A DNA stretch of 64,000 nt from Syntrophaceae bacterium (GTDB taxonomy: Bacteria; Desulfobacterota; Syntrophia; Syntrophales; PHBD01): positions 582,936 through 646,935 of the forward strand of contig JABLXX010000001.1 of the NCBI GenBank assembly GCA_013177825.1, given 5' to 3'. A model generated the notes under the pieces. It ran no database searches. It was not told where the DNA came from and saw only the letters and a program-made list of their open reading frames with translations. Positions 22,152 through 40,183 of this stretch are shown in pieces (position 1 is the first letter of the stretch; every line of letters starts with the position of its first letter). The position numbers were made by a program, and so were the translations under genes.

Positions 22152-22821
22152 TCCTTCCTCCATAGATGTAAACATTGCGGCTGGCAAATTGACGAGGCTG
22201 ATTCACAAGGGGGACATCGCGCATGCGGATTGTCCTTACAGCCCCTTGTTCTTCGCTGTAGATTGTGCCGCTATCTGAAGTCATGCTCCAAAGTGCTGTT
22301 TGTGCGTTCTCTGCCACAACTCGTGTTTCAAATAGCGGACGAGACAGGGGGCAACAGCGACGTCCCAGATATGGTGTGAACAGGGGTTTTTTGACCGCCT
22401 GCTCAAGTTCATTGAGTGAAATGAAAGCTGGCTCTATGTTCCAGACTGCGACAGTGTAAAATGCATCGAAGAGATACTCTCGCCATGTTTGAATGGTCTC
22501 ATGGGTCTTGAGGCCAGTATAGTCCTTCCTTGCTTCTTTTACGGTGTGATAATCAACAAGTTTAACCGTCTGTAACGCGTACTTCTTCCCGCTGTGCCTT
22601 ATCAGGAAACGATCTTCCTTACATACTGCGAAACAGATACTTTGGGCCAATTGTTGCTGGCGTTCTCGATCATTGCGTTTTATTCCTAGGCAAGCGCCGA
22701 GTAGTCCAAGCAGAGCGCTCCTGGAAGGGAGGTTTGCCGACGGGCGATATCCCTCGAACGTATGCTCTCCCCAGGCTTGCATCGGCCCATACAGCTTCAG
22801 GATCAGATAGTCCCCCATCAT
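22126..22821 (-). CDS. cas5e: Cas5e Cascade subunit
   Basis: This is a Cas5e (CasD) of about 231 residues, which binds the crRNA 5' handle in Cascade. The opening MMGDYLILKLYGPMQAWGEH and the following RPSANLPSRSALLGLLGACL are characteristic. The ATG at 22821 shares its first base with the TAA stop of cas7e (TAATG), so translation is coupled; an ATG three bases later is an alternative start. GAGG lies just upstream. Confidence 0.95.
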   Translation of the reverse strand: MMGDYLILKLYGPMQAWGEHTFEGYRPSANLPSRSALLGLLGACLGIKRNDRERQQQLAQSICFAVCKEDRFLIRHSGKKYALQTVKLVDYHTVKEARKDYTGLKTHETIQTWREYLFDAFYTVAVWNIEPAFISLNELEQAVKKPLFTPYLGRRCCPLSRPLFETRVVAENAQTALWSMTSDSGTIYSEEQGAVRTIRMRDVPLVNQPRQFASRNVYIYGGRNAFEQSND

Positions 22822-24029
22822 TACACCTCGCCGTCTCCGCGAACCCATTCTTTCAGATTATCGAGCGTTGATTTGCGGTCGATTCCTTGTGGTGTCTCGA
22901 ATTGGCCGAGTACAAACGAACCGCAGCGCTCTTCCAGTCCATATCCGCTATGGATCTGTTGCCAGTAGTTCAAGAGCGCCCTGATGGATACCGCACGAAA
23001 ACCGTTTCCATTGGAGCGGACCGGTTCTTCGAAGGCATTGGCCAGCGAGACCGGAATGTCGGAAAAAGAAACGAGAACGAGGTCAGCCAAATTGTGAGCG
23101 GCAAAGCTGTGCTGCTTTGCCGAAGGGACGACCGTCGCCATCATGTGCAGCACGTGTGCGGCGATTTCCAGCGCCTTTTCTCTTGGTGCGTTTCCCAGAT
23201 TGTCCTGTAACTGCTTCAGATTAAGGCTGGCATATCGGTAAAAGACACCGCTCGAAAATTCCTGCGTATCAAGGTGGCCCGACCCGAGTTCCTGCAGATC
23301 ATCGACAGCCGTGAACCAATCGATATCGGCGTCGACGGCGTGAGTGGTCAATATATGGGCGACAGCCAGAGCTCCTTCAATGGTTGTCATCAAGCCTGAA
23401 GTAGCCATCCTGCCGGAGAGCGCTACATCTATTGCTGATCTCATGGCTTGTCGTAATGCTGTTCGGTTATCTTCTAATCTTTTTCTAATTTTCTTATCTA
23501 ATGCATCATCGCGAAAATGATCGAGAGCCTTCTTCTTTTTCCCCTTCTGTTTTTCATAAAGTTGTTTCGCTTTTTCCGTTTCCTCGTCAGATAATCCTTC
23601 TGCCCTAATATCTTTAACTATCTGGCAAATTATCTTGAATTCTTCTTTCATCCATGGAGCTACTGCAAGTCTATTATCATCGGAATCATCCGGCACTCGT
23701 TCATCCAGATTTTCGTCTTGATTGCCACTTGGTTTAGTTTTTGCGAATCTTTCTATAGCATCATTGATGGTTGCTTCATCGAACTCATCTCTTAACAACG
23801 TATGGAACTGATCTTTCAGCAATGCGAGGTCGCGACTGCGAATGCTCGTTTCTCCTAGATGCTTTCCATAGTACTCGCTCTTGCGCATGGCACGCTTGAG
23901 ACTCTGGCTTGAGATTCTTACCCGGCGGACACCACCGAAAACAGCCGATTTCTGCATGTTCATGTCATCGCGGTTGAGGCAGGAGGGACTGTGGGAGATC
24001 AACACGTGGAAATTGATAAAATTTTTCAT
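22821..24029 (-). CDS. cas7e: Cas7e Cascade backbone subunit
   Basis: The 402-residue product is Cas7e (CasC/Cse4), the protein that forms the six-copy backbone of Cascade along the crRNA. It opens with NFHVLISHSPSCLNRDD and carries VRRVRISSQSLKRAMRKS, both strongly conserved in the family. A charged lysine- and glutamate-rich insert lies at about residues 95-185. It follows cse2 after 27 bp and overlaps the cas5e start. The ribosome binding site is AAAGGAGA. Confidence 0.96.
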   Translation of the reverse strand: MKNFINFHVLISHSPSCLNRDDMNMQKSAVFGGVRRVRISSQSLKRAMRKSEYYGKHLGETSIRSRDLALLKDQFHTLLRDEFDEATINDAIERFAKTKPSGNQDENLDERVPDDSDDNRLAVAPWMKEEFKIICQIVKDIRAEGLSDEETEKAKQLYEKQKGKKKKALDHFRDDALDKKIRKRLEDNRTALRQAMRSAIDVALSGRMATSGLMTTIEGALAVAHILTTHAVDADIDWFTAVDDLQELGSGHLDTQEFSSGVFYRYASLNLKQLQDNLGNAPREKALEIAAHVLHMMATVVPSAKQHSFAAHNLADLVLVSFSDIPVSLANAFEEPVRSNGNGFRAVSIRALLNYWQQIHSGYGLEERCGSFVLGQFETPQGIDRKSTLDNLKEWVRGDGEV

Positions 24030-24056
24030 GTTTGTCTTCTCCTTTGGTAAAAATGT

Positions 24057-24518
24057 TCAGTTTGTTTGATTAAGAAAGAACTGTTCGAGAAAATCACGTT
24101 TGCTTCGTTCGTTCCAGTACCAGAGAGTCATAGCTGTTTTTTGCCAGTTTACGGTTGGCTCAACCATGCGGAGTACCCGGCGTAACTGGATTATGTCGTT
24201 TGGAAAGTTGCTTCGGACAACTTGGAACAGCCTCTTTTCACTAACCACTGTACGGCCGCCCTTACGGATATCGGCCAGTGCAGCGCCCAGCGTGACCGGT
24301 CTGTCCGTATGCTCCTTGATACAGGGGAGGCAATAAATAAGCCTCTGATAGGCTTGCTTTTCCCATTCCGTTTTCCCCCTTCCACTGTACAATCGATAAA
24401 AAGCGGGGATTGCCAAGAGGTTTTCAGGGTGGCTGACGCGGCGTAGTTCGGCCTTCGGTCCGGATGTCAATCTCTGCCATGCCTGATACAACTCCATGAA
24501 GTCATGCGTTTGTCTCAT
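24057..24518 (-). CDS. cse2: Cse2 / Cas11e Cascade small subunit
   Basis: The 153-residue helical product is Cse2 (CasB, Cas11e), present in two copies in Cascade and stabilising the displaced strand. Recognisable parts are PAFYRLY, an internal Arg- and Trp-rich helix, and a late LRRVLRMVEPTVNWQKTAM. The start at 24518 is chosen because AAGGAG lies five bases upstream; two ATGs further 5' have no such site. It overlaps the end of cas8e by 17 bp. Confidence 0.93.
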   Translation of the reverse strand: MRQTHDFMELYQAWQRLTSGPKAELRRVSHPENLLAIPAFYRLYSGRGKTEWEKQAYQRLIYCLPCIKEHTDRPVTLGAALADIRKGGRTVVSEKRLFQVVRSNFPNDIIQLRRVLRMVEPTVNWQKTAMTLWYWNERSKRDFLEQFFLNQTN

Positions 24519-26082
24519 CGTCACTCCTTCCATCATGTTGTGGTTTGAGTGCCTTCAGGTTCTTGTTCAGAATTTTCCTCGAAATGGCCATTGTCCGTAC
24601 CAATTCGGGATCATTTAGATACGGATGTACCGATTCATTGAAAAGATTTGTGGTGATTCGATTCAACTTCTCACCCATTGCCAATAATTCCGATGAAGGA
24701 TTTTCGAAATCAATGCAGCTTAAAGTGTGGAGCACCGCATCTTCACTGCGCCTGAAGAATTTCCCCTTAGCTATCTCGTGCAAATTGATTTTAATACCTT
24801 TGGCCCCCGTGAACTTCTTAGTCTTCTTGAGTCCTTTGATAAAAACGCCCAGTGCATTGAATAGTGAATTACCGTATCCCTTGGCGAGTTCAACGAGATC
24901 GTGAATGATGTTTGTATGATTACTCCATCCGTCATTGAGAAAAATCAGTTCGTGACGGCGCTCCTGGATGTCAGCAAGTTTACTTGGATTTCGATAACCT
25001 CCTATGTTCAATCGGAGTCCACGTACGAGACCTTGAGCTTGTCTAATAACTGCTGCCGGTTGTTGCCCTTCAGTCTTATCATCTGTCTGGAGTTGGACAA
25101 CAAAACGGCTCAATTGAGTCCAAGCAGGAGCCAGTGTTGTAAAAGATATGAATCTTTCTTCAGGCACATTATTTTTGAATGTTGTTGTCCGCACACCATG
25201 AGGATGGGGCCAAAGACCTTGAATTGTGTATCTAAATTGGACCCTTTTAAATCCTCTAAAAACTTTCTGTCCGGAAAAGCCACAGCAACTACAAGAGTGT
25301 GGTCCATTCAGGGGAAGCAATTCGATGTGGGCGGGCTGCCAAAATAGTCCCCTTAATAGGCCAATGGTCTGTGCCGGAATGATTGATAATGCCTTGATAG
25401 GATCGACCCAAGTCGGCTTCTGTTTTTGTGTTTCCCGATGCCACGGTAAATCGGCAATCACTTTTTCTTTACTCAGGACATTGAACCAAACCGTTTGTCG
25501 AAGATCTTCTCCCTGCACCAAAGTTGTTACTGGAGAACCGCTAAATCCTCCTTTCCCATCCTTTCCTGGCCACCGTCCATCACGAAGATTTGACTTAAAA
25601 CCGCCACCAAAGCTGGGTGCGCAAGAGGCTTGATTGAATAAGGCGATTGCAGCACACCCACCACAAAGGTGTGAACCAAGTCCGGGTTCGTTTACGAAGC
25701 AACTGTTGGTTGCTCCACTCAACCCCGCCATCAGCTTACCCATTGGGATGATTTCCTTGGCATCGGCTTCTCTTACCTGCATAAATGGATGTTCGGGGTG
25801 GTCAAGTTGAAACCAGTCATCATAGGGTGCGCATCCTTCATCGAATGTGCCCGTCTCCAAGGGTGATACAATTCGTTGTTTTAATTCCTGGATATCCTTC
25901 GGCAGGAAGAAGACCTGCGCTATGCAGATGAGCAACTGCAAGGCCGCCATCTCCATGTCATCACGCGGGAGAGAGAGTTCCCATCTGTCATCTTCGCACA
26001 ATAGCTGTCGCAGAGTGATCTTTACCGGGTTCCCAGCAGGTAAAGGCCGTACGGGTATCCACTGATCCGTAAGAAGATTCAT
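24502..26082 (-). CDS. cas8e: Cas8e (Cse1/CasA) Cascade large subunit
   Basis: This 526-residue protein is Cas8e, the Cascade subunit that recognises the PAM and recruits Cas3. It begins MNLLTDQWIPVR, the classic family start, and includes PEHPFMQV, the GGCAAIALFNQASCAPSFGGG region, and cysteine pairs CGGC (about 141-144) and CSCC (about 266-269) that probably bind zinc. It overlaps the cas3 stop by 4 bp. Length is close to E. coli CasA. Confidence 0.96.
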   Translation of the reverse strand: MNLLTDQWIPVRPLPAGNPVKITLRQLLCEDDRWELSLPRDDMEMAALQLLICIAQVFFLPKDIQELKQRIVSPLETGTFDEGCAPYDDWFQLDHPEHPFMQVREADAKEIIPMGKLMAGLSGATNSCFVNEPGLGSHLCGGCAAIALFNQASCAPSFGGGFKSNLRDGRWPGKDGKGGFSGSPVTTLVQGEDLRQTVWFNVLSKEKVIADLPWHRETQKQKPTWVDPIKALSIIPAQTIGLLRGLFWQPAHIELLPLNGPHSCSCCGFSGQKVFRGFKRVQFRYTIQGLWPHPHGVRTTTFKNNVPEERFISFTTLAPAWTQLSRFVVQLQTDDKTEGQQPAAVIRQAQGLVRGLRLNIGGYRNPSKLADIQERRHELIFLNDGWSNHTNIIHDLVELAKGYGNSLFNALGVFIKGLKKTKKFTGAKGIKINLHEIAKGKFFRRSEDAVLHTLSCIDFENPSSELLAMGEKLNRITTNLFNESVHPYLNDPELVRTMAISRKILNKNLKALKPQHDGRSDDETNA

Positions 26083-28715
26083 CTTTCCATCTCCAATCCG
26101 GTATCCCTATGATACCTGAAAACAATATTGTTCCATTCGCTCACGAAATTCCCCCCTTTCTCCGTCATTGCAAGCCAGCAACCTTTGTCATCAACCTCCC
26201 TGCATGCATTCTTGAGCCATCCTCTCCAACCATGGGGCACGCTTACACTATTGAGGGCAAGTTCTTCTGCTTGCCGGTAATCATCCAAGTCGTCGATCAA
26301 CTCGCCATCAAGCAGTCGCTTGCCGTCCGGCGATTCCAAATACGGGATTACCGTCAGGTTCATCTCCCCGTCACGAGTGACGGCGGCCACGACTTCATCC
26401 GTATCGCCAAAAGGGTTCGCTGCGGAATGAATCATCACACGAGCCTTGCTTCTGGAAACGAAAAGGTCATTTGCAAACTGCTCGTATGCTTTTGTGATCT
26501 CATTCGGTTCTTTCTCCCATGCTGTCTCCTGATAAACCGGTTCAATCCAATTGCGATAAGCGCTAGGGAACATGACCTTTTCGTCAGTTGTGTTGATGAG
26601 TAATTGTTCGGTTCTCCAAAGGACGCGCGTGTTCGAGTAAACCTTCCCGGTTAGTCCATAATCACTATCTCGTGGCAACAGAACTGTGCAGACAGGCTTT
26701 TCAAAGTTTGGCGGACGCTTGCTATGTTCATGCCGATGTAGCCGGCCCATCCGCTGAAAAAGGAGGTCAACCGGGCAGAGTTGGGTCACGATCCAGTCAA
26801 AATCAAGGTCGAGCGACTGTTCGACAACCTGCGTGGCCACTAGGATCCGGCCTTGATCCCGGTTGCCTTTGGGGCCAAATTGTTGAATGATATTGTTCTC
26901 TTTTGTCTGTCTATCCTTGAAACGGTAACGAGCATGAAAGAGATCTACGGGCGCCGACGAAAAATTTTTAAGTCTACGAGCTACACCTTGAGCAGTAGCA
27001 ACGAGATTACATATTATCGCTACCTGTGCGCCTTCATCGGCAGCCATGACTGCGCGTTGTAGTATGCTGTCATCTGGCTCCATTTTATCAGTCCGGAGAC
27101 ATTCAGCTTTGACTTCCTGCGACTTGGGTTGATCTTGTTGCGTGAGTGATAACTGCCCCGATTCATTCTCGCCAACCCAGGTGATTAGAGGATAAGGTGC
27201 CTGTCCTGTCATGTTTCTACTGCCGGTCTGCCATGTTGCGCAAAGTTGTCTTTTCTGGTTTGCCGGCAGGGTTGCCGACATCAGGATGACTGATGCTCCG
27301 GCTGCGTGCTGTTGGCGTAAAACCTCTTCGAGCAGACCGTACATGTACGCATCATAGGCATGAACCTCGTCTACGATGAGTATGCTTCGTCCGATTCCAA
27401 AACTACGCACGAAACGATGTTTGACCGGCAAGACGGAGATCAGCACTTGGTCAATTGTGCAAATTCCGATCTGACCGAGGAAAACCCGCTTTCGGCTTTC
27501 CGCGAGCCACTGTCCACATTGCACCCATCCGTCCGGCTCCCCGTCAGCATAGATCCCCTTGCGTTTCAGACCCGCAAATTTGTCATTGAATCTTGCTGAA
27601 CCGTGCGCAAGCAGCAAGTTTGGCGAGTTATTGAATAGTTTCGTTGCGACTGTCTCCAATCGCCCCAACATGGCGTTTGCCGTTGCCTGGGTCGGCAGAG
27701 CGAAAATGATCGAATCGACTAAGTCAGCGGCCAATAGTCGCCATGCATAGGCGAGGGCTGCTTCCGTTTTTCCTGAACCGGTGGGGGCCTCAATAATCGT
27801 CAATGCAGAGTGCAGAGGCAGATCATTAACCATGGTCTGGAGAGGATGGGGTGAGGTGCAGACCGGCAACAATTGTTGTATGCCGCCGTAATCTTTTGGG
27901 GAACCGTTAATTCCTGAGAAAGAAAAAATTCGGGGTGCATCATCCGAAAGCTTTCTTTCAAAATATGAGGAAAGCGGCTCCTTTTGATTCTGAAAGGTAA
28001 AGTTCACCTCATCGCAACGGGATGCAAGCCAATCGGCCACAGAACAGAGTCCCGCGAGAAGGGGTGATGGAGGCGGCGGGCTGTCATTCAAAGAAAGGCC
28101 TACTGGTTGCAAAAAGAATTGGCAAAGTGTTTCCAGCCACGAGATGCGTACCGTGCGATCTAACTCTGCAGGCCCCTGGTCAGATAGTGAAGACAGAGCA
28201 GTTTCTCGAATATAAGAAACGTCCTTCACATGGCCGTGATGCCCGGTTGTCGCCTCAATCCAGGGTTTCCACTGCAACCAATGAGCCGGGTCATCTTCGT
28301 CAACGAACATGGAATTGCTCTGGCTGCATCCGAAACATCGGAAGAAGTCTTGCTTGAACCATGACAGTCCGTTTTCGCCATGCATGTACTCCCTGCATTC
28401 ATATTCAGAGGGTAGGCGGCGACTTTCATCGGAGAGAGGGTAAAGTGCTTTCCATGCAGGTTTGACTTTTAGTTGGAAACGAATGTCGTACTTTCCGTAA
28501 TCGTGGAGGGCTGTAAACATCAAGAGCCATGCACGTATCTGCGTCTCGGTCACAGCGGAATATTGACAAAAGCTCCTTCGAATCGTTGCACTGGCATCCC
28601 ACCACGTGGCAATGACCGCCGCCACATCCAGGCAGTGATAAGGCAAAAGATGGTAGCTCGCTCCTTCCCTATCCGCTTTTCCCCAATACCGGTAATAGGC
28701 GGGCTGTATGCTCAT
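26079..28715 (-). CDS. cas3: Cas3 HD nuclease-helicase
   Basis: This is an 878-residue Cas3, the effector that degrades target DNA after Cascade binding. The N-terminal HD nuclease has His27, the HD pair in ALHDYGKYD (His71-Asp72) and TGHHG further on. The superfamily-2 helicase follows with Walker A APTGSGKTEAALAYAW, the DEVHAYDAYM box, MSATLP, and QRMGRLHRH. All motifs look intact. The start at 28715 has GGAGGGG upstream, and its ATG overlaps the TGA of the exonuclease gene (ATGA). The frame is open further 5', but only within that neighbour. Confidence 0.97.
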   Translation of the reverse strand: MSIQPAYYRYWGKADREGASYHLLPYHCLDVAAVIATWWDASATIRRSFCQYSAVTETQIRAWLLMFTALHDYGKYDIRFQLKVKPAWKALYPLSDESRRLPSEYECREYMHGENGLSWFKQDFFRCFGCSQSNSMFVDEDDPAHWLQWKPWIEATTGHHGHVKDVSYIRETALSSLSDQGPAELDRTVRISWLETLCQFFLQPVGLSLNDSPPPPSPLLAGLCSVADWLASRCDEVNFTFQNQKEPLSSYFERKLSDDAPRIFSFSGINGSPKDYGGIQQLLPVCTSPHPLQTMVNDLPLHSALTIIEAPTGSGKTEAALAYAWRLLAADLVDSIIFALPTQATANAMLGRLETVATKLFNNSPNLLLAHGSARFNDKFAGLKRKGIYADGEPDGWVQCGQWLAESRKRVFLGQIGICTIDQVLISVLPVKHRFVRSFGIGRSILIVDEVHAYDAYMYGLLEEVLRQQHAAGASVILMSATLPANQKRQLCATWQTGSRNMTGQAPYPLITWVGENESGQLSLTQQDQPKSQEVKAECLRTDKMEPDDSILQRAVMAADEGAQVAIICNLVATAQGVARRLKNFSSAPVDLFHARYRFKDRQTKENNIIQQFGPKGNRDQGRILVATQVVEQSLDLDFDWIVTQLCPVDLLFQRMGRLHRHEHSKRPPNFEKPVCTVLLPRDSDYGLTGKVYSNTRVLWRTEQLLINTTDEKVMFPSAYRNWIEPVYQETAWEKEPNEITKAYEQFANDLFVSRSKARVMIHSAANPFGDTDEVVAAVTRDGEMNLTVIPYLESPDGKRLLDGELIDDLDDYRQAEELALNSVSVPHGWRGWLKNACREVDDKGCWLAMTEKGGNFVSEWNNIVFRYHRDTGLEMER

Positions 28716-29242
28716 CTCCCCTCCATCTTCATCCAGATTTGAGCTACCATGCGGGCATCGGCCAAGGCGCGATGGTTCTGGCCGCAATTTTCAGCCTGGC
28801 CGCACAGGTGGCGATGGACGGTTTCCAGGCGGTGGTTCGGAAGATGTGGGCAGCGGCGGCGGCTCATTTCCAAGGTGCAAACGTGGGGATGTGTGAGGTT
28901 CATTCGGAGACGCTGGAATTCGTAACGAAGAAAACGGAGGTCAAACGGTGCATTGTGGGCGACGAGCAGGCTGTCACGAATAAAGTCCTGGAAGCGCGGG
29001 ATGATTTCTTCCGGCGCGGGCTGGCCGTGAAGCATGTTCTGTGTAATGCCGTGAACCTTTGCTGCACTTTTGGAAATCGGTACCCCTGGATTAACAAGGC
29101 TGTGAAATTCGGAGACGGTTGATCCATGGCGGGAAACGGCTATCGCTCCGATCTCGATGATCCGGTGTCCATGGGTGGGAGAAAGCCCCGTGGTCTCCAC
29201 GTCGAAGAAGACTATGGATTTGCTGTACGGATGCTTTGGCAT
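28712..29242 (-). CDS. DEDDh 3'-5' exonuclease (DnaQ-like) heading the cas operon
   Basis: The 176-residue product is a stand-alone DnaQ-type exonuclease. ExoI is FFDVETTGLSP (Asp14, Glu16), ExoII is LVAHNAPFDLRFL, and ExoIII is HRALADARMVAQ with the DEDDh histidine and final aspartate; all catalytic residues are present. The start at 29242 places ExoI where the family expects it; the frame is open 62 codons upstream but that part is Ser/Pro/Arg-rich and not family-like. The gene ends in an ATGA overlap with cas3, so it is translated together with the cas genes. Related exonucleases trim prespacers for Cas1-Cas2, which is the inferred role here. Confidence 0.9.
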   Translation of the reverse strand: MPKHPYSKSIVFFDVETTGLSPTHGHRIIEIGAIAVSRHGSTVSEFHSLVNPGVPISKSAAKVHGITQNMLHGQPAPEEIIPRFQDFIRDSLLVAHNAPFDLRFLRYEFQRLRMNLTHPHVCTLEMSRRRCPHLPNHRLETVHRHLCGQAENCGQNHRALADARMVAQIWMKMEGR

Positions 29243-31344: not shown

Positions 31345-32307
31345 TCAGGCCGGCGGGTGCCCGCCGTCCAGGGATACGCCGGTGTCTCCCTCCTCGATCG
31401 GCTTGGGCCACAGGACGGAGGCCAGGATGGACAGGGCCAGGACGCCGACGATCACTCCGAGGGAGACGAAGACGGGGATCATCACCAGGTGGGACAGGAG
31501 CATCTTGACGCCCACGAAGGACAGGATGACCACCAGGCCCCAGTGGAGGTAGTGGAAAATCCGCATCAGGCCGGAGAGGGCGAAGAAGAGGGACCGGAGC
31601 CCCAGGATGGCGAAGACGTTGGACGTGTAGACGATGAAGGGGTCCGTCGTGATGGCCAGGACCGCCGGGATGGAGTCGACGGCGAAGAGGATGTCCGTCG
31701 TCTCCAGGGCCAGGACGACGGCGAACAGCGGTGTGGCATGGCGGATGCCGTCTTTGACCAGGAAAAAGCGGCCTCCGTCGAAGGAGTGGTCCACCGGCAT
31801 GATCCTGCGGAGCCCCTTCAGGACGGGGTTCTTCTCCGGGTGGACCTCCCGGTCCGTGCTCACGGCCATCTTGGCCGCCGTGAAGATCAGGAACAGGCCG
31901 AAGACATAGATGATCCACTCGAACCGCTCGATGAGGGCGACGCCGGCGAAGATGAAGACGGCCCGGATGACGAGGGCGCCGAGAATCCCCCAGAACAGGG
32001 CCTTGTGCTCGTACTGGGGGGGCACCTGGAAATAGCCGAAGATCATCAGGAAGACGAAGAGGTTGTCGACGCTCAGCGAATACTCGATCAGGTAGCCCGC
32101 CAGGAACTCCAGGGCCTTGTGGTGCCCCTCGAACCAGTAGACGCCGCCGCAGAACAGCATGGCCAGGGCGACCCAGAAGCCGGTCCACAGGAGGGCCTCC
32201 CTGACATGGACCACGTGGGCCTTCCGGTTGAAGACCCCCAGGTCCAGGGCCAGGAAGACGAGAATGAGAATGGCGAAAACGGTCCAGCCGACGATGGTGA
32301 CGGTCAT
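31345..32307 (-). CDS. TerC family integral membrane protein
   Basis: This 320-residue protein has about nine predicted membrane helices and the two TerC signature segments: EYSLSVDNLFVFLMIFGYF near residue 75 and ALETTDILFAVDSIPAVLAI near 200, whose acidic residues lie within the membrane. The family (TerC, Alx) is linked to metal, especially manganese, export and to tellurite resistance. Many terC genes follow a yybP-ykoY riboswitch, but here only 6 bp separate it from the synthase gene upstream, so no such element is possible. It is part of a packed operon with glutathionylspermidine synthase-like and DUF350 genes. Confidence 0.93.
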   Translation of the reverse strand: MTVTIVGWTVFAILILVFLALDLGVFNRKAHVVHVREALLWTGFWVALAMLFCGGVYWFEGHHKALEFLAGYLIEYSLSVDNLFVFLMIFGYFQVPPQYEHKALFWGILGALVIRAVFIFAGVALIERFEWIIYVFGLFLIFTAAKMAVSTDREVHPEKNPVLKGLRRIMPVDHSFDGGRFFLVKDGIRHATPLFAVVLALETTDILFAVDSIPAVLAITTDPFIVYTSNVFAILGLRSLFFALSGLMRIFHYLHWGLVVILSFVGVKMLLSHLVMIPVFVSLGVIVGVLALSILASVLWPKPIEEGDTGVSLDGGHPPA

Positions 32308-32313
32308 TTCCTC

Positions 32314-33510
32314 CTACCTTGGTCTTGATTCCGGAAAACCGGCACGAACTGCATGCCCTGCGAACTGGGAGAGGTTGTGGATGATGCCCTTCTCCCGGCG
32401 GAAGCCGAGGCCGCAGGGCTCCCAGGAGAAGAAGACCCCCGCCTGGTAGAGGCGGCCTTCGCTGTCGGTCGGGAGGTCCGCGAACTCCTGGTAAATGGAG
32501 CGGTACGATACATAATCCCCGTCCCTTCTGTCCAGTTCATTTCCCGATTGGTCGAGGATGCGCACGTTGTCCCCCTCCCGGCTGAAGGTCTTTTTCTCCA
32601 CGCAGGTGGTTCCGCGGAGCGGCTCGAAGGATGTTTCCAGGAGGAGCGGATGGCCCGGGAAGAGGTCCCAGAGGACCTTCAAAATGCCCTTCGACTGGAA
32701 GAGGAGCGAATAGGGCGGATTCAGAAGGACGACCCTGTCCCGCCGGAGAAGGTCCGTCAGGAGCTCCGCCAGCTCCGGCTCCTCCATGCCGATGTACTCG
32801 TAGGGCAGGAGCTTGTACCAGAAATCAAAACGGTCGCCCGCGGGATTGGAGATCCCCTCCTCGTCGAAGCACACGTCATGGGCGTACTCGAAGCCGGTTA
32901 TGAATCCTGCCTCGTAGGCCATTTCCTCCAGGAGGCGGGTCGTATTCTCGTCCTCTACGCCCAGGTCGAGGCAGGAGAAAAGGATGCACGGGATGGGGGC
33001 ATCGGCGCCGGCGAAGGCCGGATGGAGGCTGCGCATCCGGATGAAGGACTCCTGCAGGGTTTCGTAGAGGCGGTTGAACTGCAACTCTTCTTCCAGGCCG
33101 TTGTGGCGGAGGACCATCCACTGGATAAGGGCCGTCTCGAAGATCATCGAGGGCGTGTCGGCGTTGAATTCGATGAGCTTGATGGGCTTCCCGTCCAACC
33201 CGCCGGCCAGGTCGAAGCGCCCCAGGAGGTGGAAGTGGCGGTCGTCCTCCCAACTGAGCCGGATCATCTCCACCAGGTTGTCCGGGATGTCCAGGAGGTC
33301 GAACAGCCCGTGATCGATGACGTGCTGGGCTGCCTGAACATAGAGGCCGTAGAGCTCTTCCGCCGCCCGGTAGAATGCCTCCCCCTCCTCTTCCGTCACC
33401 TGGACCAGTTCGTTCGCCACATAGTCCAGATCGCCGGAGGAGTCGTACCAGTAAAACCCGACCTGTTCGAAAATGGAGGGGGGGATGGGGTTCACCCTGA
33501 GGATTTGCAC
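32314..33510 (-). CDS. Glutathionylspermidine synthase-like ATP-grasp ligase (YgiC/YjfC type)
   Basis: The 398-residue product belongs to the synthetase-only glutathionylspermidine synthase family. Features include GFYWYDSSGDLDYVAN near the N terminus, LIEFNADTPSMIFETALIQW (ATP-grasp nucleotide and metal site), LNPPYSLLFQSKGIL, and a final AGVFFSWEPCGLGFRRE. There is no amidase domain, so it resembles YgiC/YjfC, whose true substrates are unsettled, more than bifunctional Gss. It sits 5 bp after a lipoprotein gene and a DUF350 gene, an arrangement also known from E. coli yjfL-yjfM-yjfC, and directly before terC. Confidence 0.92.
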   Translation of the reverse strand: MQILRVNPIPPSIFEQVGFYWYDSSGDLDYVANELVQVTEEEGEAFYRAAEELYGLYVQAAQHVIDHGLFDLLDIPDNLVEMIRLSWEDDRHFHLLGRFDLAGGLDGKPIKLIEFNADTPSMIFETALIQWMVLRHNGLEEELQFNRLYETLQESFIRMRSLHPAFAGADAPIPCILFSCLDLGVEDENTTRLLEEMAYEAGFITGFEYAHDVCFDEEGISNPAGDRFDFWYKLLPYEYIGMEEPELAELLTDLLRRDRVVLLNPPYSLLFQSKGILKVLWDLFPGHPLLLETSFEPLRGTTCVEKKTFSREGDNVRILDQSGNELDRRDGDYVSYRSIYQEFADLPTDSEGRLYQAGVFFSWEPCGLGFRREKGIIHNLSQFAGHAVRAGFPESRPR

Positions 33511-33515
33511 GGCTT

Positions 33516-34136
33516 TCAGCCCGAGAAGCTTCGGAAACTGCTGGTCATCCGGGAGAAGAACCCGCTCTTCCGGGCGCCCGGCGAGGTCGATGTGTATTGG
33601 CGGTTTCCGTAGCTGTATCCGTAGTAGCGGCTTCCATACCAGTAGCTTCTCGTGGGATTGCCTGCCCGCTGCTCCTCTTCCTTGAGGCGCTCTTCCAGGG
33701 GGAGGCGGCTGGCCAGGCTCTGCCGGTAGACGGCCTCGTTGCCGTAGACGAAGGGATTCGGGGCTGTGTTCTTGCCCATCATGTAACCCAGGAGACCCGC
33801 CGACAGGACGGTCCCCAGGCCCAGCATGCTCCGCTCCTGGCCCGCTCCGTCCATGAGGCTGCGGACCTTGTCCTCCGGGAGGGTCTCGCTGGTTCCGTCC
33901 CGCCTCTTTACGACAACTCCCGTCGTGCTGCTGGGGTATTCGTTCACGATCTTGTAATCCCCCGGCGCCGTTTCCTCGATCTGGGTCATGACGCCGGCTT
34001 TCCGCTCCTGCATGACGTTCCCGTCCCCGCCGCCGGTCGTCGTGACCGGCGCCTCGTCACATCCCGTGAGCAAGGTGTGGGCCAGGAAAAAGACGCCCCC
34101 GGCGATCATTCGGCTTTTTCGTCCCGGTTGTTTCAT
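33516..34136 (-). CDS. Lipoprotein in the DUF350-synthase operon (YgiB/YjfM-like position)
   Basis: The 206-residue protein has a signal peptide ending in the lipobox LLTGC and is a predicted lipoprotein. Its middle has a glycine-rich hydrophobic stretch (LGLGTVLSAGLLGYMMGKN, about 102-120) and the C terminus is rich in Tyr, Ser, Gly and Arg (SYWYGSRYYGYSYGN). Composition and position between a DUF350 gene and a synthase match DUF1190-type YgiB/YjfM proteins, but similarity is not clear enough to be certain. Function is unknown. Confidence 0.7.
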   Translation of the reverse strand: MKQPGRKSRMIAGGVFFLAHTLLTGCDEAPVTTTGGGDGNVMQERKAGVMTQIEETAPGDYKIVNEYPSSTTGVVVKRRDGTSETLPEDKVRSLMDGAGQERSMLGLGTVLSAGLLGYMMGKNTAPNPFVYGNEAVYRQSLASRLPLEERLKEEEQRAGNPTRSYWYGSRYYGYSYGNRQYTSTSPGARKSGFFSRMTSSFRSFSG

Positions 34137-34155
34137 GGCTCCCTCCGGTTTTCGA

Positions 34156-34977
34156 TCAAACGATCATGCGGCTGATGACGACGGCGAGGGCGATGACGAG
34201 CCCCTGCACCAGGAGGGCCGCGGCGCTGTTTCCCGCCTGGATCTGGTCTCCCAGTTTCGTCTTCGGGAGAAAGATCCAGTCGGAGATCTTCTCGAAAATC
34301 AGGAGAAACAGCATTCCCGAAGCAGCGCTGATGAGGAACCAGCCCAGGCTCTCGGCCCAGCCGACAAAATCGCCGGCGATGCTGGACCGCAGGATGATGC
34401 TGTAGGCCACGAGCAGTCCCGCCACGGTGATCCCGGCGCTGAGGTTGCCCTCCTGCAGGCAGGCCGCCGTACGGAAACGGTAGATCCGCTGGTGCAGGAA
34501 GACCGCCAGATACAGGAAGATCTGGGCCAGGGCGAAGAAGGCCACGGCCGAAAGCAGGCTCCCGGTTTCGCCGGCGAAGGCACCGTTCAGCAGGATGCCC
34601 GTGGCGATGAAGCTGCCGGCCTCCACGATCCCCGTCGGCACATTTCCCGCCTTGATCAGGTCATTGTTGCGTACACCCGGGACGAGGATGCGGTCGTTCA
34701 GGAGGTGGGCGGCGAAAAAGAGAACCGTCGTGATGGCCCCGTCGGTTAGAAAAACCACGAGGTCCGCCCTCCGGAGCCCCCCCTGGAAAACCCCCGCCAG
34801 GGCGGTGCAGATCCCCACGTAAAGCCCGAACCGGCGCAGCGCAACGGCGGTGTTTCCCTCCTTTTCCACGGCGAGGTCGTCGTCGAACTTCGTGAGGACG
34901 TCGGCGATCCGCTTCGAAATGTAGAGGAATGCCAGGATGAGCGCCACGTACACCACAATCATGCCGTATCGTTCCAT
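34156..34977 (-). CDS. Membrane protein with two DUF350 domains
   Basis: The 273-residue protein has about eight membrane helices arranged as two DUF350 repeats (about 1-135 and 140-273). Each repeat has a conserved small-residue motif after an acidic or polar step: KAGNVPTGIVEAGSFIATGI in the first and QAGNSAAALLVQGLVIALAV in the second. DUF350 (YjfL) proteins are poorly characterised inner-membrane proteins. The gene opens the DUF350-lipoprotein-synthase-TerC block and lies 62 bp after the oxidoreductase. Confidence 0.85.
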   Translation of the reverse strand: MERYGMIVVYVALILAFLYISKRIADVLTKFDDDLAVEKEGNTAVALRRFGLYVGICTALAGVFQGGLRRADLVVFLTDGAITTVLFFAAHLLNDRILVPGVRNNDLIKAGNVPTGIVEAGSFIATGILLNGAFAGETGSLLSAVAFFALAQIFLYLAVFLHQRIYRFRTAACLQEGNLSAGITVAGLLVAYSIILRSSIAGDFVGWAESLGWFLISAASGMLFLLIFEKISDWIFLPKTKLGDQIQAGNSAAALLVQGLVIALAVVISRMIV

Positions 34978-35039: not shown

Positions 35040-36374
35040 TCAAAGTTTCCGGAGCAGCCCCTGGGCGGCGATGTGGATCGGGTCCCAGGCGCCGCCGAAG
35101 GGCGGAGAGTAGGCCAGGTCAAGGTACGCCACGTCCTCCAGGGACATCCTCGCCCAGAGAGCCGCCGACAGGGTGTTGACACGGCTCACCGCTCCCGCCT
35201 CGCCGACCGCCTGGACTCCCAGGAGCTTTCCCGTACCCCGGTCCGCTGTGAGCTTCAGGCCCACTCTCCTTGCCGTGGGCATGGATCGGGCCGCACTGTT
35301 TCCCCAGAGGATGGTGCTGACGGGATGGAAGCCCGCGGCGGTCGCCTCCCGCTCGCTCAATCCCGCGGCGGCGGCTTCCAGGCCGAAGACCTTGAAGGAC
35401 TGGGCTCCCACGATGCCGGGAAAGGTCATGGGGTCTCCGCCGATGTTGCTGCCGGCCACGCGGCCCTGCTTGTTGGCGATGTCGCCGAGGGGAATGTTGA
35501 CCCAGCGGCCGCTCACCCGGTGGTAGGACTCGCAGCAGTCTCCCGCTGCGTAGACGTTTTCCGCACAGGTGCGCTGGGCGAAGTTGACGGCGATGGCCCC
35601 CGACGGTCCGAGGGTGATGCCTGACTCCCGGGCCAGGTCGACGTCCGGTCGGACCCCCAGGGCAAGGAGGATGATGTCCGCTTCCAGGGGGCCGGCGCTT
35701 GTGTTGAGGCGGTTTCGGCATTCCGATCCGGGTTCGATGGACGTGACAAGCGTGTTCGGCAGGAAGGCCACGCCATGGCGCTCCATTTCCTCCAGGATCG
35801 GACGCGACAGCTCGGGATCCCAGCGGGCCGCCGGCAGGGCGCCGCGGTGGACCATGGTCGTTTCGATGCCCGCCTCGCGGAAGGCCTCAGACATCTCCAG
35901 GCCGATGAAGCCGGCGCCGATGATGACGGCCCTCCGGCAGGGGGTGTCCTGAAGAAGCTGCTTGATGCGGATGGCGTCGCTCAGGCCCTTGAGGACAAAG
36001 ACGCCCTCGCGGTCCTCTCCGGGTATCCCCGGCGTGAAGGCCCTGGTTCCGGTGCCGAAGACGAGGAAATCGAAAGGCAGCTTTTTCCCGTCTTCCGTGA
36101 GCACCGCCTGCTCCTTGATGTCCACGGTTCCCACCCGGGTTTCCGTGAAGACTTCAATTCCCGTCTCCCGGAACTGCTCCGGGGTCCGGGCCACCAGCTT
36201 CCGATTGTCCTTGATTACATCGCCGATGTAATAGGGCATCGGTCAGGCGGCGGTGGATGTGTGGGGCGTCCGCTCGATCATCGTAACGGTCAATCCCGGG
36301 TCCTTCCGCCGGGCCTCCGCTGCCGCAGAGGCGCCTCCGGCGCCGGCGCCGATCACGATCAGGTTCTTGCTCAT
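35040..36374 (-). CDS. Selenocysteine-type CoA-disulfide reductase/NADH oxidase-like flavoprotein (UGA at codon 44)
   Basis: Read through one TGA at 36245-36243, this is a 444-residue FAD/NAD(P)H pyridine nucleotide-disulfide oxidoreductase of normal family length. The N terminus (LIVIGAGAGGASAAAEARR, then MIERTPHTSTAA) carries the FAD Rossmann motif. UGA then falls exactly where the catalytic Cys of the SxxxC motif belongs (S40-T-A-A-U44), followed by PMPYYIGDVI. Further on: VFGTGTRAFTPGIPG, NAD motif VIIGAGFIGLEMSEAF, and VYAAGDCCES. The ATG at 36374 has an AGGAGG site 7 nt upstream, and both halves share one frame. A SECIS-like hairpin follows the UGA. The shorter frame from 36239 lacks the FAD motif and is not a sensible gene. 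It lies 19 bp after lgt. A nonsense mutation is the alternative reading. Confidence 0.85.
36215..36245 (-). promoter_or_regulatory. UGA codon and bacterial SECIS-like stem-loop
   Basis: On the minus strand the UGA (36245-36243) is followed by 11 nt and then a perfect 7-bp stem, TTACATC / GATGTAA, with apical loop GGC (36231-36215). The loop starts with GG and lies 18 nt after the UGA, within the geometry known for bacterial SelB-binding SECIS elements (a G in the first loop positions, loop about 16-37 nt from UGA). E. coli fdhF has a similar offset. A bulged U as in fdhF is not seen. Confidence 0.7.
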
Positions 36375-36393
36375 GCCGGATCCTCCTTTGCGA

Positions 36394-37239
36394 TTATCGA
36401 TTCCGCTCCGCGGCGGTTTTACGCATCATGAAGACCGCCAGTCCCGCCCCGATCATCAGCAGGCAGAGGAGCTGGCCCATGCTGAGGGAAAACAAGAGAA
36501 GCCCGAGCTGGGCATCGGGTTCCCTGAAGAACTCGATGACAAACCGGATAAGGCCGTAGCCGATCAGATACATGGAGAGCAGGAACCCGTCAAAGGGACT
36601 TTTCCGGCGGATCGCCCAGAGGATTGCAAAGAGGACGACGCCTTCGAAAAGGGCCTCGTAGAGTTGGGAGGGGTGGCGAAGCAGGCCCGTGGGGTCGAGT
36701 GGAAAGTACATCCCCCAGGGCATCGTCGTGGCGCGCCCCCAGAGTTCGCCGTTCAGGAAATTCCCGAGCCGGCCGAAGGTGTAGCCCAGTGGAACGGTTG
36801 GGCAGATCAGGTCCGCCATGTTCCAGAAGGCGATGCCGTTGCGCCGGCAGAACCAGACGGCCGCCAGGACCACTCCCACGAGCCCGCCGTGGAACGACAT
36901 GCCGCTGATGCCGACGAAGCGCATACCGCCGCCGCTGAATTCGAACGGCAGAAGGATCTCCAGGGGATGTCCGAGGTAGTAATCCAGGTTGTAAAACAGA
37001 ACGTACCCGAGGCGGCCGCCCAGGATCAGGCCGAAAATGATCCAGATGAAGAGATCCTGGATCGTCTCAGGCGTGTAGGGGAACTTTTCCTGGCGGATCC
37101 GGCGGACCACCAGGAAGTAGGTGAGTCCGAAGGCCGCCAGGTACATCAGGCTGTACCAGCGAAGCTGGAAGGATCCGAACTGGAAGAGGAAGGGGCTGAT
37201 GTGGCTGGGGAGGCTCGCCCAGCCGGTCGGATTGTCCAT
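36394..37239 (-). CDS. lgt: Prolipoprotein diacylglyceryl transferase
   Basis: The 281-residue product is Lgt, the inner-membrane enzyme that adds diacylglycerol from phosphatidylglycerol to lipobox cysteines. Seven membrane helices are predicted. The signature GYTFGRLGNFLNGELWGR is intact, as are GGRLGYVLFYN and FHGGLVG. The start at 37239 (MDNPTGWASLPSHISPF) fits the family; 38 more codons are open upstream but are Arg-rich and not family-like. The downstream oxidoreductase starts 19 bp later, suggesting one operon. The many lipoproteins in this window are its natural substrates. Confidence 0.95.
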   Translation of the reverse strand: MDNPTGWASLPSHISPFLFQFGSFQLRWYSLMYLAAFGLTYFLVVRRIRQEKFPYTPETIQDLFIWIIFGLILGGRLGYVLFYNLDYYLGHPLEILLPFEFSGGGMRFVGISGMSFHGGLVGVVLAAVWFCRRNGIAFWNMADLICPTVPLGYTFGRLGNFLNGELWGRATTMPWGMYFPLDPTGLLRHPSQLYEALFEGVVLFAILWAIRRKSPFDGFLLSMYLIGYGLIRFVIEFFREPDAQLGLLLFSLSMGQLLCLLMIGAGLAVFMMRKTAAERNR

Positions 37240-37415
37240 GAAGTCTGCTTTCTCCCGCCCTGAATTCCTGCGATGCAGCGGGGATCGAAGAAGTGGAGGT
37301 TCCTGCCGGGCGGCCCTTCCGACAACCCGGCCGGCCCCGTTCGCGGTGTACACCGGCAGTCTCTTACCACAGCGGGCGGCCGATGCGCAACGGAAGTCCG
37401 TGAAACCGGGGTGTA

Positions 37416-38625: not shown

Positions 38626-39045
38626 ATGGAAAATCGTTTCCGGGATTACAATCTGGCCCTCTTCTCCGGGGGGCGGCGGGTCTTCTCGTCGCAGGGGAAG
38701 GGGCTCCGGCCGCTGGTGGAGTGCCTGGACGCCTGCCGGGACTTCCGGGACTGCGTGCTCCACGACAAGATCATGGGCCTGGCGGCGGCGAGGCTTGCGG
38801 CGGACTCGGGGATCGTGCGGGAAATCGCGGCGCGGACGGCCTCGGAGCCGGCGGCGCGGTTCCTTGGTGCAAGAGGCATTCCCCTGGAAGCGGAGGGAAC
38901 CGTTCCCGCCATCCTGACGCAGGACGGTGGCGCCGTCTGTCCGGGGGAGCGGATCGCCCTGGCCGTGGAAGATCCGGGTCGGTTTGAGAAGGAAATCCGG
39001 GCGATGATCGCCTCCGGTGCGGCAGGGCAACCCACCGGTCAGTAA
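38626..39045 (+). CDS. DUF1893 family protein
   Basis: This 139-residue cytoplasmic protein resembles the DUF1893 family: YNLALFSGGRRVFSSQGKGLRPL near the start, a DCVLHDKIMGLAAARL core, and an acidic Gly-rich end. Family function is unknown; related folds occur near cytidine deaminase-like proteins. It lies 81 bp after the SMR gene and its stop overlaps the end of the convergent trxB gene by 7 bp. It was chosen over the antisense frame because that frame is poor in family-like sequence. Confidence 0.78.
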   Translation: MENRFRDYNLALFSGGRRVFSSQGKGLRPLVECLDACRDFRDCVLHDKIMGLAAARLAADSGIVREIAARTASEPAARFLGARGIPLEAEGTVPAILTQDGGAVCPGERIALAVEDPGRFEKEIRAMIASGAAGQPTGQ

Positions 39046-40004
39046 GCCGTGCCCTTGAGGTCCTCCACGTAGAGCTGGGCCGAGTAAGCCGCAACGGCTC
39101 CATCACCGCAGGCGGTGATGACCTGCCGCAGGGGGGTGACCGTGCAGTCCCCGCAGGCGAAAATGCCCGGTGCCGAAGTCCGCATCGCCCGATCCACCCG
39201 GACGGCCCCGTCGGGTTCGCAATCGGCAAGGTCCCGGACAAGGTCCGTATTGGGGATCAGCCCCACGAACAGGAACACGCCCTCCGTCGGGACTTCCCTT
39301 TCCTCCCCCGTCTTGACGTCCCGGAGACGCACGGCCTCCACCGTCTCTTTCCCGAGGATTTCCTGCACGACGGAGTTCCACGCGAAGGCGATCTTTTCGT
39401 TGGCGAAGGCCCTGTCCTGGAGAATCCCCACGGCGCGAAGGCGGTCCCGCCGGTGGACCACGGTCACCTTTCCGGCGAAGTGGGTCAGGAACAGGGCTTC
39501 CTGGATGGCCGTGTTGCCGCCCCCGACGACGACGACCTCGCGGTTCCGGTAAAAGGGCCCGTCGCAGGTGGCGCAGAAGGAGACCCCCCGGCCGATGAAC
39601 GCTTCCTCACCCGGGACGCCGAGCCTCCTCCAGGAGGCCCCTGTAGCCAGGACTACCGACAGGGCGTCGATCGTTTTCCCGCCCGCGCTGATCCGCCAGA
39701 CCGGAAGGTCTCCCCGGCGGCCGGCTTCCAGGGACGTCGTGTCCTCGGACAGGATTTCCAGGCCGAACTGCGCCGCCTGCTTCTTCAGGCGCTCCACCAG
39801 GTCGAATCCGTTGATGCCCTCCGGAAACCCCGGATAGTTCTCGATCATGTCGGTGATGGTGATCTGGGAGACGGTGGAGGCCCCCTGGACCAGGATCGTC
39901 CGGAGGTTGGCCCGGGCGGCGTAGATGCCTGCCGTCAGGCCCGCCGGACCTCCGCCGATGATGGCCACGTCCCAGGGTTGGTCCGGATGCGCCGCTTCTG
40001 CCAT
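39039..40004 (-). CDS. trxB: Thioredoxin-disulfide reductase
   Basis: The 321-residue product is a low-molecular-weight thioredoxin reductase. It has the FAD motif VAIIGGGPAGLTAGIYAAR, the redox pair in CATCDGPFYR, the NADPH motif VVVVGGGNTAIQEALFL with HRRDRLRA, and the C-terminal FAD motif GIFACGDC. The active site uses ordinary cysteines here, unlike the UGA-containing oxidoreductase at 35040-36374. The start at 40004 has AGGAGG six bases upstream. It is a single gene, divergent from yebC. Confidence 0.96.
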   Translation of the reverse strand: MAEAAHPDQPWDVAIIGGGPAGLTAGIYAARANLRTILVQGASTVSQITITDMIENYPGFPEGINGFDLVERLKKQAAQFGLEILSEDTTSLEAGRRGDLPVWRISAGGKTIDALSVVLATGASWRRLGVPGEEAFIGRGVSFCATCDGPFYRNREVVVVGGGNTAIQEALFLTHFAGKVTVVHRRDRLRAVGILQDRAFANEKIAFAWNSVVQEILGKETVEAVRLRDVKTGEEREVPTEGVFLFVGLIPNTDLVRDLADCEPDGAVRVDRAMRTSAPGIFACGDCTVTPLRQVITACGDGAVAAYSAQLYVEDLKGTAY

Positions 40005-40183
40005 GGAAAGCCTCCTGTCCGCCGGTTGCGGAATCGTTTTACACCCTTTAGACAATCGGGGCGGACCTGTCAACGGACGGCCTTTTTTGCCTTGGCAAGC
40101 AGGAGTGGGTATGCTATGAAACGGCGAATAAATCAGAATATTTATGGAACTTAACCCGTTCCGTTTCCAAGGAGAAATCCCTT

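Follow-up and report, generated by a model that had tools for sequence, protein, structure and literature searches.

The gene at positions 35040–36374 (minus strand) of the window (the whole stretch of DNA analysed, 64,000 nucleotides from an uncultured Syntrophales bacterium) very probably encodes, judging by its sequence, a selenoenzyme of the CoA-disulfide reductase/persulfide reductase/NADH oxidase fold. Incorporation of selenocysteine (Sec) at the in-frame UGA of codon 44 is strongly supported by sequence comparison; support for the predicted fold, and for where its active site lies, comes from sequence and from a high-confidence structural model. The first-pass annotation had already read this gene as a selenoprotein, and that reading holds: the homologous column has only TGA or Cys, the SECIS hairpin is kept in Sec genes, and the genome contains sel genes. 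The gene, its start signal and the recoded codon are located as follows:

35040–36374, minus strand: gene for the predicted Sec-containing CoA-disulfide-reductase-like flavoprotein (444 aa, Sec as residue 44, terminal stop TGA at 35042–35040)
36382–36387, minus strand: Shine–Dalgarno sequence AGGAGG, 7 nt before the ATG at 36374
36243–36245, minus strand: in-frame TGA (codon 44), predicted to be read as Sec, in the column where CoA-disulfide reductases have their redox Cys

The frame (36374–35040, minus strand) comprises 43 codons, a single internal TGA, and then 400 sense codons before the stop. Its opening by an ATG at 36374 behind an AGGAGG (36387–36382), and its continuation for 400 codons past one TGA at codon 44 (36245–36243), are as originally described. 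Translation with read-through places residue 44 in the context S40-T-A-A-U44-P-M-P-Y-Y-I-G, which agrees with the claim that the TGA occupies the active-site Cys of an SxxxC motif followed by PMPYYIG. The read-through product aligns to Pfam Pyr_redox_2 starting at profile position 2, and it also matches Pyr_redox_dim. An internal open reading frame (ORF) of 399 aa, which starts at 36239, one codon past the TGA, matches Pyr_redox_2 only from profile position 63, and thus lacks the FAD motif; a gene call halting at the TGA would yield this shortened protein, the truncation against which the first-pass annotation had warned. Relative to the orthologue in a congener, dN/dS is 0.18 before the TGA and 0.23 after it, indicating that codons on both sides are under purifying selection; decay of the frame, which had been named as a sign against a selenoprotein, is not seen in this comparison.

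Homologues were collected from 80 relatives (loci for the best 30 matches), from genome contigs (best 80 of 122 relatives), from 155 genomes of the class (best 20 loci), and from 395 genomes of the phylum (best 30 loci), together with 19 + 20 extra stretches hand-picked from the matches. Duplicate genes from two collections were merged (128 rows to 106, later 155 to 143), and one locus that begins after codon 44 (L062) was left out of the codon counts. Across the 143 distinct homologues covering the site, codon 44 is TGA in 106, Cys in 37, and anything else in none, so that the column holds Cys or TGA only, as expected from the initial interpretation; these TGA shares, like those for homologues with at least 50% identity (68 Sec, 28 Cys; n = 96) and for more distant ones (38 Sec, 9 Cys; n = 47, many hand-picked), are not frequencies, because they derive from best-match loci and hand-picked stretches. 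The residue after position 44 is proline in 95 of the 96 homologues with at least 50% identity, and Sec genes with UGIP or UGMP occur elsewhere in the phylum, in other families. A few copies elsewhere have other or extra stops (three TGA and two TAG in genome G111; one TAG in G084).

Sec and Cys have been exchanged repeatedly at this position. On a quick tree of 106 distinct rows (from 128), the main clade requires at least 11 Sec/Cys interchanges on the best tree; all tree rows together require 12 changes, 9 of them forced by starred branches. Its starred branches offer eight independent contrasts between Sec and Cys, which gave averages of 6.8 with the stem on the Sec side, 0.0 against, and 1.1 without difference (sign test, median p 0.016, range 0.016–0.031). 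The congener orthologue is 82% identical, with TGT at codon 44, a broken stem and the same downstream neighbors; it most likely went from Sec to Cys, because the nearest outgroups of the two genes (L019, L020, and L050) have Sec. A paralogue in the same genome (L138, G000:C1:655945-657270, plus strand), about 9 kb past the window, is 55% identical and has TGT at the Sec position. Its stem still pairs 8/8 (one G-U) and it is grouped among Sec relatives on the tree; the stem is likely a relic, and the change from Sec to Cys recent. Such switches offer natural matched pairs for learning what advantage a flavoenzyme gains from having selenium instead of sulfur at its redox site.

The hairpin that would direct Sec insertion lies directly downstream of the TGA:

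36214–36232, minus strand: putative SECIS hairpin, with 5′ arm 36232–36225 (ATTACATC), loop 36224–36222 (GGC), and 3′ arm 36221–36214 (GATGTAAT)

The hairpin with a GGC loop noted initially is present, but its stem has 8 bp, not 7, and starts 10 nt past the UGA; the spacer from UGA to loop is 18 nt, and the folding energy is −9.2 kcal/mol over 36 nt. These values lie within all the constraints of the bacterial SECIS model given in one figure legend (loop 3–9 nt, stem 4–16 bp, G in the first two loop positions, UGA-to-loop distance 16–37 nt, and minimum free energy at most −7.5; PMC13188914, Fig. 2A legend), in line with the bacterial SECIS geometry first proposed. An Rfam search around the gene gave no match over the gathering score and four sub-threshold matches, all on the opposite strand. 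On its own, the stem of the window gene says little, as 5643 of 50000 synonymous recodings (11%) likewise pair 8/8 (G-U allowed); its folding energy is reached by 1252 of 50000. The weight of the hairpin evidence is carried by comparison of sequences across species, not by the single gene. At 50% identity or more, all eight pairs form in 66/66 distinct Sec genes vs. 2/27 Cys genes, and at least seven pairs in 66/66 vs. 10/27 (Fisher p 5e-12, kinship uncorrected). In the register of the window gene, all eight pairs form in 92 of the 106 Sec rows (65 distinct 36-mers) outside a second subfamily. Among the 65 distinct 36-mers, compensatory double changes affect three pairs: 14/30 goes from TA to CG in seven and 15/29 in one, and 17/27 goes from CG to TA in one. 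The other 14 Sec rows (L191–L204) lack an eight-pair stem in this register, and several fold into differently shaped stems. The second Sec subfamily, also in Syntrophales (L127–L130, L132–L137), is about 40% identical and has the motif SYSA-U-SIPYYVG; its ten Sec rows have a different predicted hairpin after the TGA (8 bp, 4-nt loop).

The genome (4.24 Mb, 25 contigs) encodes selA, selB, selC, and selD, all over curated cut-offs, including a tRNA-Sec (selC) with anticodon TCA; the four genes, the absence of which had been listed as a possible objection, are therefore all present. The selD frame itself contains one TGA (L147, G000:C2:171816-172742), as does the top formate dehydrogenase (FdhA) match of the genome. 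Three formate-dehydrogenase-like matches in the same genome have a single in-frame TGA (L150, G000:C3:121456-123465; L154; L155). Among relatives, selA is matched in 74 of 80, and in 58 of the 59 with a completeness of at least 90% and a contamination of at most 5%, the exception being G025, whose copy of the flavoprotein gene has Cys. Three TGA-carrying genomes had no selA match (G055, G065, and G078; 68, 88, and 77% complete), which probably reflects assembly gaps.

These data bear on three other accounts of the TGA. It is very improbable that the codon is a true stop, with the locus being either a decaying pseudogene or the source of a truncated product from the ATG at 36239: the 399-aa ORF does begin there, and there are the copies elsewhere with several or other stops, but the strong ribosome-binding site precedes 36374, with no AGGAGG just before 36239, the short form would lack the FAD dinucleotide motif, codons 1–43 are conserved (dN/dS 0.18 vs. 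the congener), and 106 of 143 distinct homologues have TGA in this column too. A sequencing or assembly error, by which TGC or TGT was misread as TGA, is more improbable still; the nearest relative does have TGT, yet dozens of separate assemblies show TGA, and the window gene retains an intact SECIS stem, which most Cys copies have lost. Reassignment of TGA to an ordinary amino acid throughout the genome, under which the frame would likewise be open, has a negligible probability, given that 17 of 22 hand-chosen gene ORFs in the window, the Sec gene included, end in TGA, and that a tRNA-Sec with anticodon TCA is present. All three accounts were rejected, on the grounds of the homologue TGA column, the dN/dS values, and the TGA stops in the window.

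For the predicted selenoprotein, with the TGA read as Cys, an AlphaFold model (alignment of 36 sequences, namely 35 loci and the window gene, from 141 usable rows) has a mean pLDDT of 94.9. Its best PDB match is 6ruz (Z 51.5, rmsd 1.7, 438 aligned residues), followed by the Pyrococcus horikoshii CoA persulfide reductase, the Archaeoglobus fulgidus persulfide reductase, the Bacillus anthracis CoA-disulfide reductase (CoADR), and water-forming NADH oxidases. Residue 44 aligns with the redox Cys of the PDB matches in sequence and structure alignments, and the single redox residue of SxxxC after the FAD motif is present, with Sec replacing Cys. The NADH-dependent CoA disulfide reductase 6ruz, deposited under the molecule name NADH oxidase and presumably from Thermus thermophilus, aligns over its full length (E 7e-100; 42% identity over 438 aligned residues) and has a single redox residue in the same column; unlike the window protein, it has Cys rather than Sec, YYP where the window protein has SMP, and Val in place of Cys280. 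The P. horikoshii CoA persulfide/polysulfide reductase (4fx9, 3kd9) and A. fulgidus Npsr (6pfz) are similar in fold (Z 48.8–50.9) and share SxxxC, and in 6pfz the Cys280 column likewise holds Cys, but all three structures have a redox Cys, not Sec, and retain YYP. Npsr differs further by an extra C-terminal rhodanese domain (PMC7969121), which is missing from the 444-aa window protein. The Staphylococcus aureus CoADR (1yqz, 4eqr, 4eqs, 4eqx) is more distant (Z about 45, 27% identity); its Cys43 corresponds to Sec44, and the counterpart of its Tyr361 appears to be lost in the window protein.

The closest profile models by sequence are those for CoA-disulfide reductase, and the first-pass description of the enzyme as CoA-disulfide reductase-like stands as far as likeness goes, given these best sequence and fold matches; it does not extend to membership of TIGR03385, whose cut-off is missed (364.2 bits vs. 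578.8), nor to the YYP motif, which is missing. The protein also falls under the cut-off of NF007123 (346.9 vs. 458), and L138 and L139, two homologues with Cys encoded in the same genome, likewise miss both cut-offs. Pfam gives no rhodanese match in the 444-aa protein. With the TIGR03385 cut-off missed and no rhodanese domain, the protein is CoADR-like rather than a filed member of the family.

Two invariant residues and a missing pair of tyrosines distinguish the predicted active site:

35109–35111, minus strand: Tyr422, taken to correspond to Tyr419 of the S. aureus CoADR, invariant in 143/143 distinct homologues
35535–35537, minus strand: Cys280 in GDCCE, directly after Asp279, invariant in 143/143 distinct homologues

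Mutants C43S, Y361F, and Y419F of the S. aureus CoADR appear in PDB titles, and we take Cys43, Tyr361, and Tyr419 to act in catalysis. Five aligned PDB relatives have Tyr-Tyr at positions 364/365, the first two residues of YYP, whereas Tyr stands at neither position in any of the 96 homologues that are at least 50% identical. The counterpart of Tyr361, whichever of the two it is, thus appears to be lost. In the more distant Sec group, Tyr is common at 364 and 365 (26 and 22 of 38, respectively). Cys280 follows what is presumably the FAD-binding Asp (Asp279); its column has Val in 6ruz and Cys in 6pfz, and it may possibly serve as a second redox thiol. CoA-disulfide itself may not be the substrate, in view of the score under the TIGR03385 cut-off and the absence of Tyr at YYP in 96 homologues.

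We propose that SelB and Sec-tRNA would decode UGA 44, directed by the hairpin 10 nt downstream, and that the product would be a 444-residue flavoprotein binding two dinucleotides. Electrons would pass from NAD(P)H to FAD and on to the selenium of residue 44, and Sec44 would attack a small disulfide or persulfide, a catalytic cycle that we infer from the family. With the YYP tyrosines lost and Tyr422 and Cys280 invariant, reduction along NAD(P)H–FAD–Sec44 is expected, but with either the acid-base chemistry or the substrate altered. The substrate is most likely a low-molecular-weight thiol compound, CoA-linked or similar; that it is specifically a CoA-type disulfide or a per/polysulfide is a guess, somewhat less likely to be right than wrong. 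A selenoenzyme of the same fold might instead act mainly as an NADH peroxidase or oxidase, removing O2 or peroxide in an anaerobe, in which case the intermediate would be a selenenic acid and not a mixed selenenylsulfide. The same fold is found in water-forming NADH oxidases and NADH peroxidase (Z about 45–48), which use one Cys at this site, and the close clade lacks the tyrosines of the solved CoADR-type relatives; such a role is nonetheless unlikely, as the best sequence and fold matches are CoA-disulfide/persulfide reductases (even if 6ruz is itself named NADH oxidase), the inferred Tyr419 counterpart is invariant, and the streptococcal NADH oxidase model scores lower than TIGR03385 (202 vs. 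364 bits).

A Sec form of this kind of enzyme was already known by 2006. A Sec-containing ‘NADH oxidase’ was counted once among bacterial genomes, in Geobacter metallireducens, in a 2006 survey whose selenoprotein list for Syntrophus aciditrophicus does not include it (PMC1794560), and once in ocean metagenomes in a 2008 survey (PMC2398784). A review names an FAD-dependent oxidoreductase (CoA-disulfide reductase), with WP_011365774.1 as the example (PMC9312934), and the Sec motif published under that name is UGxP (PMC13188914), which the UPMP of the window protein does not match. The window clade and the published family share the enzyme type (TIGR03385/PRK09564/COG0446) and, as far as the UGxP motif indicates, Sec at the same redox position. 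The clade differs from the family so described by U-P-[M/T]-P in place of U-G-x-P, by its occurrence in Syntrophales, by the lack of YYP, and by frequent linkage to trxB and lgt. In the present collection the Sec form is common across Syntrophales and extends to further families of the phylum, vs. one member in each survey count of 2006 and 2008. The terms ‘NADH oxidase’ and ‘FAD-dependent’ are absent from the main text of PMC5029168, and deep-Sep reports another Sec flavoprotein, of COG1252 (PMC12013277). No published mention of the UPMP/UPTP clade, or of how widely it is spread in Syntrophales, was found in a search of texts outside the supplementary tables, where an earlier listing is possible.

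Two of the genes upstream of the Sec gene show conserved linkage:

36394–37353, minus strand: lgt, prolipoprotein diacylglyceryl transferase, directly upstream of the Sec gene
39039–40073, minus strand: trxB, thioredoxin reductase, further upstream

In the window, trxB and lgt are separated by three opposite-strand genes. Across loci, lgt is found in 57/80 and trxB in 54/80, always upstream and on the same strand; both occur in 50 of the 66 loci having at least 2400 nt of upstream sequence, and lgt lies at most 300 nt away in 48 of the 75 with at least 1200 nt. It is possible, if rather doubtful, that the mostly Sec-dependent Syntrophales branch, with its tyrosines dropped, its tie to trxB and lgt, a substrate other than CoA-disulfide and possible help from Cys280, represents a new selenoenzyme activity.

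Downstream, a SpoU methylase is found at 27/80 loci and TerC at 21/80, the order in the window being DUF350, a small gene without Pfam match, GSP_synth, TerC, and SpoU. The stretch directly behind the Sec gene (31345–34977, minus strand) thus contains DUF350, the small gene, GSP_synth (a glutathionylspermidine-synthase-like ATP-grasp protein), and TerC/Alx; the arrangement resembles the Escherichia coli yjfL-yjfM-yjfC genes. A peptide-polyamine ligase adjoining a disulfide reductase is suggestive, but DUF350 and GSP_synth occur there at only 1/80 loci, that of the congener. Some loci without lgt form a second neighborhood group, whose neighbors we take to be a C_GCAxxG_C_C protein, a 4-hydroxybutyryl-CoA-dehydratase-like protein, and an acyl-CoA mutase. 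Elsewhere in the window (from 14261 on, and 22821–28787) lies a Type I-E CRISPR-Cas system with a repeat array and genes for Cas3, Cse1, and Cas7; the array has 90 copies of a 90-nt repeat-spacer-repeat unit at 61-nt spacing (30 of the 90 listed).
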